Shown: in pieces, positions 6,272-30,299 of the stretch
Numbering within the stretch: position 1 is the stretch's first letter
How the letters are laid out: every line of letters starts with the position of its first letter
Source of the DNA: Natrinema saccharevitans
Lineage (GTDB): Archaea; Halobacteriota; Halobacteria; Halobacteriales; Natrialbaceae
Reading direction: 5' to 3'
Length of the DNA: 64,000 nt
Assembly: GCF_001953745.1 (NCBI RefSeq)
Contig: NZ_LWLN01000001.1
Coordinates: 3,286,001 to 3,350,000 of the forward strand
The notes under the pieces: generated by a model
What the model saw: the letters and a program-made list of their open reading frames with translations, nothing else
What the model was told of the DNA's origin: nothing
Database searches by the model: none
Program-made: the position numbers and the translations under genes

Positions 6272-6352
6272 TACGGTTTCCTGTCAGTCAGTGCCGGCGT
6301 ACCTGCGACCCGGGCGGCGGGTGCGCCGGGACATCGGGACAGCAATCCGTAC
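6271..6352. repeat. Family 1 palindromic repeat, copy B
   Basis: An 82-bp imperfect palindrome that starts with ATACGGTTTCCTGTCAGTCA and ends with GACAGCAATCCGTAC. The first A is the last base of the methyltransferase TGA. The inner arms (GCCGGCG...GCGCCGGG) pair. It fills the space between two convergent genes (methyltransferase and serA) and may end both transcripts. Confidence 0.78.
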
Positions 6353-10978: not shown

Positions 10979-11064
10979 CTATAGTAGCCGCTGAACGTCA
11001 TTGCACACCTGATCGCACGACTGCGCTGCGATCAGTGTGTGAATCGTTTCGACGGCTACTATAG
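10979..11064. repeat. Family 2 palindromic repeat, copy 1
   Basis: An 86-bp element with ends CTATAGTAGCCG and CGGCTACTATAG that pair exactly, and an inner stem TGATCGCA/TGCGATCA around a short loop. It lies between serB and a small membrane-protein gene on the same strand. Copies 2 (18944-19028) and 3 (20856-20941) share the layout. No transposase gene is present in or beside it. Confidence 0.85.
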
Positions 11065-18298: not shown

Positions 18299-18958
18299 GT
18301 GAAAAGCGACAGTGATCGAACTCGTCGTAGACTGCTCCGAACCGCCGGACTGACGGCGGCGACCGGCGTCCTCGCGGGGTGTCTGGAAGAGAGTACGACC
18401 GACGACCCCGGCGGCTCGACCGACGACGGCGATGGCGACGAACCCGATACGGGGGACGAGACCGATGGAGACGACGGGTCGGGAGCGGACGGATCCGACG
18501 GTGACGAGGCGTCTGACGGGGACGGTACCACCGACGCCGCCGACGCCGATTCGGAGACCGACCCAGAGGACGGGGAGACAGAACCGACCGAGACCGATCG
18601 CGAGTACGAGATCGAACCCGGAACGGAGATCCTGTTCGGCGGGGAGACCACCGAATGGGTCGGTCTCGAGCCGTCCGCGATCGAGGGGGTAGCGAACCCG
18701 ACGCTCGTTCTCGAGGCGGGCGAGGAGTACACGATCGGCTGGACCGAGGGAGACGGCGCCCAACACAACGTCGAAATCTGGGACGAAAACGAGGACGTCG
18801 TCGACGGCCTCGAGACCGAACTGGCCGCCGAGCCCGACGAGGGGCAGCGGCTGACGGTGACCGCCAGCGAGGAGATGGCCGCGTACGTCTGCCATCCGCA
18901 CACCATCACTATGCAGGGGACTATCCGGGTCCGAAGCGGCGAGTATCGTAGCTCTTGA
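18299..18958 (+). CDS. Second halocyanin-type copper lipoprotein with long acidic linker, 219 aa
   Basis: A GTG start (18299) begins a Tat lipoprotein signal (RTRRRLLRTAGLTAATG, then LAGC). A linker of about 80 residues, almost only Asp, Glu, Gly, Ser and Thr, follows, then a cupredoxin domain with ligands in AQHNVEIW and VCHPHTITMQG. The paralogue at 17659 has a much shorter linker, so the two may reach different partners across the surface layer. The TTTTTAG box is about 28 nt upstream. The last codons and the stop TGA lie inside family 2 repeat copy 2, so the C-terminus YRSS is encoded by the repeat. Confidence 0.9.
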   Translation: MKSDSDRTRRRLLRTAGLTAATGVLAGCLEESTTDDPGGSTDDGDGDEPDTGDETDGDDGSGADGSDGDEASDGDGTTDAADADSETDPEDGETEPTETDREYEIEPGTEILFGGETTEWVGLEPSAIEGVANPTLVLEAGEEYTIGWTEGDGAQHNVEIWDENEDVVDGLETELAAEPDEGQRLTVTASEEMAAYVCHPHTITMQGTIRVRSGEYRSS

Positions 18959-19028
18959 AACGATTCACACACCGATCGCAACGCTGTCCTGCGATCGGAT
19001 GTACATTGATTTTCAAGAGCTACTATAG
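18944..19028. repeat. Family 2 palindromic repeat, copy 2
   Basis: About 85 bp; the arms GTAGCTCTTGAAA and TTTCAAGAGCTAC pair perfectly, and an inner CCGATCGCA/TGCGATCGG stem pairs too. It resembles copies 1 and 3, but the arm sequence CTCTTG/CAAGAG differs from their CCGCTG/CAGCGG on both sides, so pairing is kept. It contains the TGA of the preceding halocyanin gene. Confidence 0.82.
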
Positions 19029-20855: not shown

Positions 20856-20941
20856 CTATAGTAGCCGCTGAAAGTCATTGCGCACCTAATCGCACGACAG
20901 CGTTGCGATCAGTGTGTAACTCGTTTCAGCGGCTACTATAG
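20856..20941. repeat. Family 2 palindromic repeat, copy 3
   Basis: An 86-bp element with ends CTATAGTAGCCGCTGAAA and TTTCAGCGGCTACTATAG that pair perfectly over 18 bases, with an inner ATCGCA/TGCGAT stem. It sits exactly at the truncated 5' edge of the S8 protease pseudogene. Confidence 0.87.
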
Positions 20942-29978: not shown

Positions 29979-30299
29979 ATGCCAACGCTCCTCGAGACCC
30001 ATATCCGGAATCGCTTTCGCGTCCAGCCCAATCACTACCTTCGAACGTAAGTCGGTGAACGAATTCGCCCGAGTGCCGGGCGAATTCGGGTAACCGTTAC
30101 GTTCGAAGGTAACGCGAACAACAACGACACGCTCCGCGGCGGCAACCTGCTGAAGCGGCTCGACGAGGTGAGCGCGATGTCGGCGATGCGCTTTGCCGGC
30201 GAGACCTGCGTCACCGCCCGCGTGAACGAACTCGACTTCTCGGTCGAGACCGAGAAAGGGGAACGGCTTCGGGACCGCGTCCACGAGATCGAGGACTGA
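29979..30299 (+). pseudogene. Acyl-CoA thioesterase (hotdog) pseudogene
   Basis: The start MPTLLETHIRNRFRVQPNH and the later piece NNNDTLRGGNLLKRLDEVSA, then MSAMRFAGETCVTARVNELDF, match the acyl-CoA hydrolase family (usual form ...LHGGNLMKW.DE...AMRFA...). A 76-bp palindrome (30036-30111) splits the gene and brings in a TAA. After DFS the sequence jumps to VETEKGERLRDRVHEIED, the usual C-terminus, so about 60-70 codons in the middle are deleted. The His of the LHGGN motif is Arg. Clearly non-functional. Confidence 0.85.
30036..30111. mobile_element. Family 3 palindromic element (MITE-like), 76 bp
   Basis: Outer arms TACCTTCGAACGTAA/TTACGTTCGAAGGTA pair perfectly (15 bp); inner arms CGAATTCGCCCG/CGGGCGAATTCG pair perfectly (12 bp) around AGTGC. 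It interrupts the thioesterase pseudogene, and the bases AC occur on both sides (30034-30035 and 30112-30113), a likely 2-bp target duplication. Taking it out restores the reading QPNHANNND. No transposase is encoded, so it would need one in trans. Confidence 0.82.

Follow-up and report, generated by a model that had tools for sequence, protein, structure and literature searches.

Short palindromic elements of haloarchaea

The described elements closest to the one reported here are haloarchaeal MITEs and the small mobile repeats (SMRs) of Haloquadratum (PMC3119063). MITEs, as defined in Haloquadratum walsbyi, share with it a non-coding length, terminal inverted repeats and a target duplication (PMC3119063). 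SMR-A and SMR-B (~80-110 bp; HqIRS41 is 80 bp) resemble it in size, in their prominent inverted repeats and in having no known transposase, and the strong target preference of SMR-A is a further likeness (PMC3119063). SMRs are reported to insert into other mobile elements without target duplication, and their mobilisation has been called enigmatic (PMC3119063). PATEs and the ends of IS200-IS605 elements are alike in forming hairpins with features readable on single-stranded DNA, but PATEs and IS605 elements, unlike the element here, have no terminal inverted repeats and produce no duplication (PMC3119063).

The window analysed is a 64,000-nucleotide stretch of the Natrinema saccharevitans genome (G000), in which a 76-bp palindrome interrupts a thioesterase gene. 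As in MITEs, the element is short, has terminal inverted repeats and no coding capacity, and is flanked by a target duplication (AC) that is demonstrated by empty sites in other genomes. No parent transposon was found for it (no pair of matching ends at IS distance among the matches listed in six genomes). It differs from MITEs in consisting entirely of a single hairpin, whose internal loop recurs, and in that a genome has just one copy of its subfamily, at a site that is hit recurrently. SMR membership was rejected on the duplication of 2 bp here and of 3 bp (TNA) in relatives, and the target here, unlike that of SMRs, is a metabolic gene. A derivation from IS630/Tc1-mariner was rejected because the empty site contains no TA to be duplicated; TA flanks do occur at copies beside tRNA-Ser and at copies of a resident family, TAGTAGCC. 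REP and REPIN elements are likewise short and palindromic, and they are mobilised in trans, as is presumed here. REPs are smaller (20-40 bp) than the element here, and we know of no TNA duplication associated with them.

No description of the superfamily to which the element belongs was found in the open literature that was searched, which is weak evidence. A search of papers for the end sequences of the element gave chance matches only, among the ten listed.

The interrupted thioesterase gene

The features of the locus, and of three distant relatives of the element in the window, are as follows.

10982..11061, + strand: distant relative, TAGTAGCC family, 80 bp, flanked by CTA/TAG
18946..19025, - strand: distant relative, TAGTAGCC family
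20859..20938, + strand: distant relative, TAGTAGCC family, near-perfect palindrome
29979..30035, + strand: thioesterase 5' fragment, codons 1-19, MPTLLETHIRNRFRVQPNH; orthologues run directly on into ANNND
30034..30035, + strand: left copy of the 2-bp duplication AC, single in empty sites
30036..30111, no strand assigned: palindromic element TACCTTCGAACGTAA...TTACGTTCGAAGGTA, 76 bp
30036..30050, + strand: outer left arm, 15 nt, with an in-frame TAA at 30048-30050
30051..30059, + strand: left side of the recurring asymmetric internal loop, GTCGGTGAA
30060..30088, + strand: inner hairpin with a 5-nt loop; arms of 12 nt at 30060-30071 and 30077-30088
30089..30096, + strand: right side of the recurring asymmetric internal loop, GGTAACCG
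30097..30111, + strand: outer right arm, 15 nt
30112..30113, + strand: right copy of the 2-bp duplication AC, single in empty sites
30114..30299, + strand: thioesterase 3' fragment, stop included; in-frame loss of 65 codons at 30239/30240

Intact orthologues of the interrupted gene are 4HBT hotdog thioesterases, whose nearest solved relatives are acyl-CoA hydrolases. An earlier note on this DNA had proposed, from the letters alone, a non-autonomous palindromic element with perfect 15-bp outer and 12-bp inner repeats, inserted with a 2-bp duplication in a gene whose frame (QPNHANNND) returns when the element is removed. Each of these proposals was supported. The outer and inner arms are 100% complementary, and folding of the element strand with its flanks gave z = -4.9, with 0 of 200 shuffles equally good. 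The element lies between codons 19 and 20, and ~20 Natrinema species read uninterrupted across the insertion site, with CAGCCSAAYCAC followed directly by GCGAAC; the restored frame is therefore real. These clean empty sites show that the AC on either side of the element comes from insertion with a 2-bp duplication. The disruption of the gene by a non-autonomous element is further supported by the relatives of the palindrome in other genomes. A resemblance between the element ends and the target site was also considered and rejected, since they have CGAAC alone in common, a likeness that other parts of the gene match equally well.

The loss of about 60-70 internal codons, also proposed earlier, was measured as 195 bp, exactly 65 codons, and lies between CGACTTC and CGACCTC, an imperfect repeat pair. 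In addition, the window gene carries the substitutions H27R, M32L and W34R at positions that are invariant in 31 orthologues. Together with the deletion, these changes mark the window thioesterase as a pseudogene.

Perfect inverted repeats of at least 15 bp with a short loop occur only twice in the 64 kb: in the element, and from 20856 in a distant relative of it. The own genome holds ~20 distant relatives, including the three in the window, and its resident TAGTAGCC family is 80 bp long and flanked by CTA/TAG. The further copies and the IS with the same ends that the earlier note suggested looking for were not found, the former in the full own genome, the latter among the matches listed in the six genomes. 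The element had no match in Rfam or in plasmid records, and none was returned by IMG/VR when queried with the subfamily core. A weak palindrome, TACGGTTTCC...AATCCGTA, was seen at 6272-6351 of the window (20 bits, adjoining TGA) and is perhaps a decayed relative.

Recurrence at the same nucleotide

BLAST and a covariance model placed the element at the same nucleotide, besides G000, in the Natrinema genome G026 (99% identical, 79/80 bp), in Natrinema altunense AJ2 (G008; 86% identical) and in a species of another genus of the same family (G073). It is absent from the site in the sisters G004, G006 and G013 and in the G073 congeners G074/G075. The flanking-gene tree groups G000 with G004, G026 with G006, G008 with G013 and G073 with G074/G075; on this tree the carriers require 4 changes, and one origin was seen in 0% of bootstrap trees. 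As the nearest relatives of the carriers are empty, the pattern calls for four or more independent insertions, or for many exact losses. It is most simply read as independent insertion at what appears to be a preferred site; since very similar elements occupy this nucleotide in three or more further lineages, the subfamily is probably selective in where it inserts. The earlier suggestion that the element moves in this lineage thus stands for the same-nucleotide insertion in four species of two genera, but not for a dispersed repeat with these ends.

Thioesterases broken in the 5' part or middle were found only in the four carriers and in G018, among the orthologues listed in a search of the 125-genome family. 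In G018 (L084, L145), the fifth species affected, a different palindrome of the superfamily lies at the Tyr75 codon, with 2 target bases missing, not duplicated. Decay is visible in the genes of G000 and G008, the latter with L4R, A20P, M32L and a 4-codon deletion; there is almost none in G026, where the coding sequence is otherwise intact, or in G073, where it is likewise intact on both sides of the insert. Recent insertion would explain these undecayed copies. In three of the carriers the reading frame acquires a stop from the insert, and in G073 the frame is shifted. The net insert length is 78 nt in two of the four species and 81 nt in a third. A palindrome inside functional thioesterases of relatives, which according to the earlier note would speak against its proposal, is partly matched by the otherwise intact coding sequences of G026 and G073, but function is unsupported given these stops and this frame shift.

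We consider it probable that a non-autonomous, MITE/SMR-like hairpin element inserted into a dispensable thioesterase gene, and that it did so independently and recurrently at one nucleotide. Haloarchaea recombine freely, and the main rival, in which a single insertion in an ancestor, or an allele that moved between species by homologous recombination, was followed by repeated precise loss in the sisters, would also account for elements at the site that form one subfamily found nowhere else, and for the M32L codon near the insert that G000 and G008 have in common. Repeat-mediated exact deletion has been proposed for haloarchaea (PMC3119063). This history appears unlikely, although it deserves some weight: the elements of G000 and G026 differ at 1/76 bp while the flanking DNA differs by ~10%, third-position differences come within 4-7 bp of the insert, so that any shared recombination tract would have to be very short, four or more exact losses would be required, and the G073 gene groups outside Natrinema.

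Removal of the hairpin at the RNA level, by splicing or bypass, would leave the gene functional and would be in keeping with the codon boundary common to four species, the net insert lengths, the compensatory changes that keep the arms paired and the otherwise intact coding sequences of G026 and G073. It is nevertheless very improbable, as G000 is without 65 codons and has changes at three residues that are invariant elsewhere, and G008 carries the changes given above. A flush 15-bp helix runs up to both joints with no bulge-helix-bulge in the fold, on which ground an archaeal BHB intron was rejected; the element has no Rfam match, and relatives have target duplications (TNA), with some of those inspected individually being intergenic. 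The small probability that is left rests with the nearly undecayed genes of G026 and G073. A chance palindrome or an assembly artefact, for which it can be said only that hairpins are hard to sequence, is refuted by the comparative data: four separate genomes, the empty sites and a family of hundreds of copies.

A wider superfamily of hairpins

A covariance model (R1) was started from ten sequences, with the internal loops built into the model. At the thresholds used, and with weak matches included, R1 found 75-80-bp hairpins in 94 of the 125 family genomes and in 106/392 genomes of the order; one weak match in the own genome (964160-964245) is plainly not a superfamily member. Copy number reaches ~180 in G126. 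The inspected members, some of them intergenic, have a common plan of outer arms, then an asymmetric loop, then an inner hairpin, and their outer arms have very different sequences with complementarity kept. Across families the internal loop is GTCA-TG-like on the left and AACCG/AATCG-like on the right, a conservation that is partly by construction because R1 was built with the loops. Arm covariation amounted to 22 cells changed on both sides, compared with 6.6 in shuffles, and both-side changes affected 9/27 pairs in the ten starting sequences.

Among members with TACTG(T/C)CGG ends, both flanks carry the same TNA triplet in 23 of 26 pairs (8.5 expected), and for one TGA-flanked copy an orthologous empty site exists. 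Continuity of reading frames across sites of the wider family was uninformative, since GC-rich DNA has long reading frames by chance. A second TACC subfamily adjoins tRNA-Ser in eight Natrinema species, mostly with TA on both sides. Target sites are altered in different ways: 2 bp (AC) are duplicated in the window, TACTG-family copies duplicate 3 bp, and the filled sites of G018 and G081/G083 instead lack 1-2 target bp. Given these differences, the superfamily may not have one common mechanism.

For the window locus, a hairpin element of the 75-80-bp haloarchaeal superfamily would have entered between codons 19 and 20, duplicating AC and putting a stop codon into the thioesterase frame. The gene would then have decayed through missense changes and the 65-codon deletion between short imperfect repeats, and very similar elements would have entered the same nucleotide independently in at least three other lineages. 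Since the matches listed in the six genomes included no autonomous transposon with such ends, a recombinase presumably acts in trans, possibly reading a folded single strand; recognition of such a strand is suggested by the recurring internal loop and the freely co-varying arms, and it is testable. Short non-autonomous elements usually scatter, whereas the window element keeps to one nucleotide across separate lineages, and this recurrence beside intact empty sites is a natural test of target choice by transposase-free repeats. More tentatively, a coding-free hairpin of <80 bp that repeatedly enters one nucleotide of one metabolic gene across genera, with a second subfamily fixed beside tRNA-Ser, might represent a minimal site-specific mobile element recognised by its structure and not by its arm sequence, which we regard as possible but not yet probable.

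In two species of one genus (G081 and G083; L087, L095), a TACTG-type palindrome breaks an apparent gene start (ATG-AAY-TAC); the filled sites are without one target base, and the site is empty in a third species (G084, L190). Comparison of L091/L193 with L196 showed a TNA-type copy at the apparent TGA stop codon of a gene, with the codon duplicated. Several other copies are flanked by TGA or TAA, and a bias for gene ends may exist, but TNA targets explain these flanks too. In the 3' flanks of tRNA-Ser in Natrinema (L157, L159, L163-L165, L169, L173; L025, L027-L029), tandem fragments of the tRNA 3' end, TTCAAATCCCTGTCCTGGCG, are spaced by different hairpins, one of which is the TACCGTCACTG palindrome, and the series looks like an array of attachment-site remnants.
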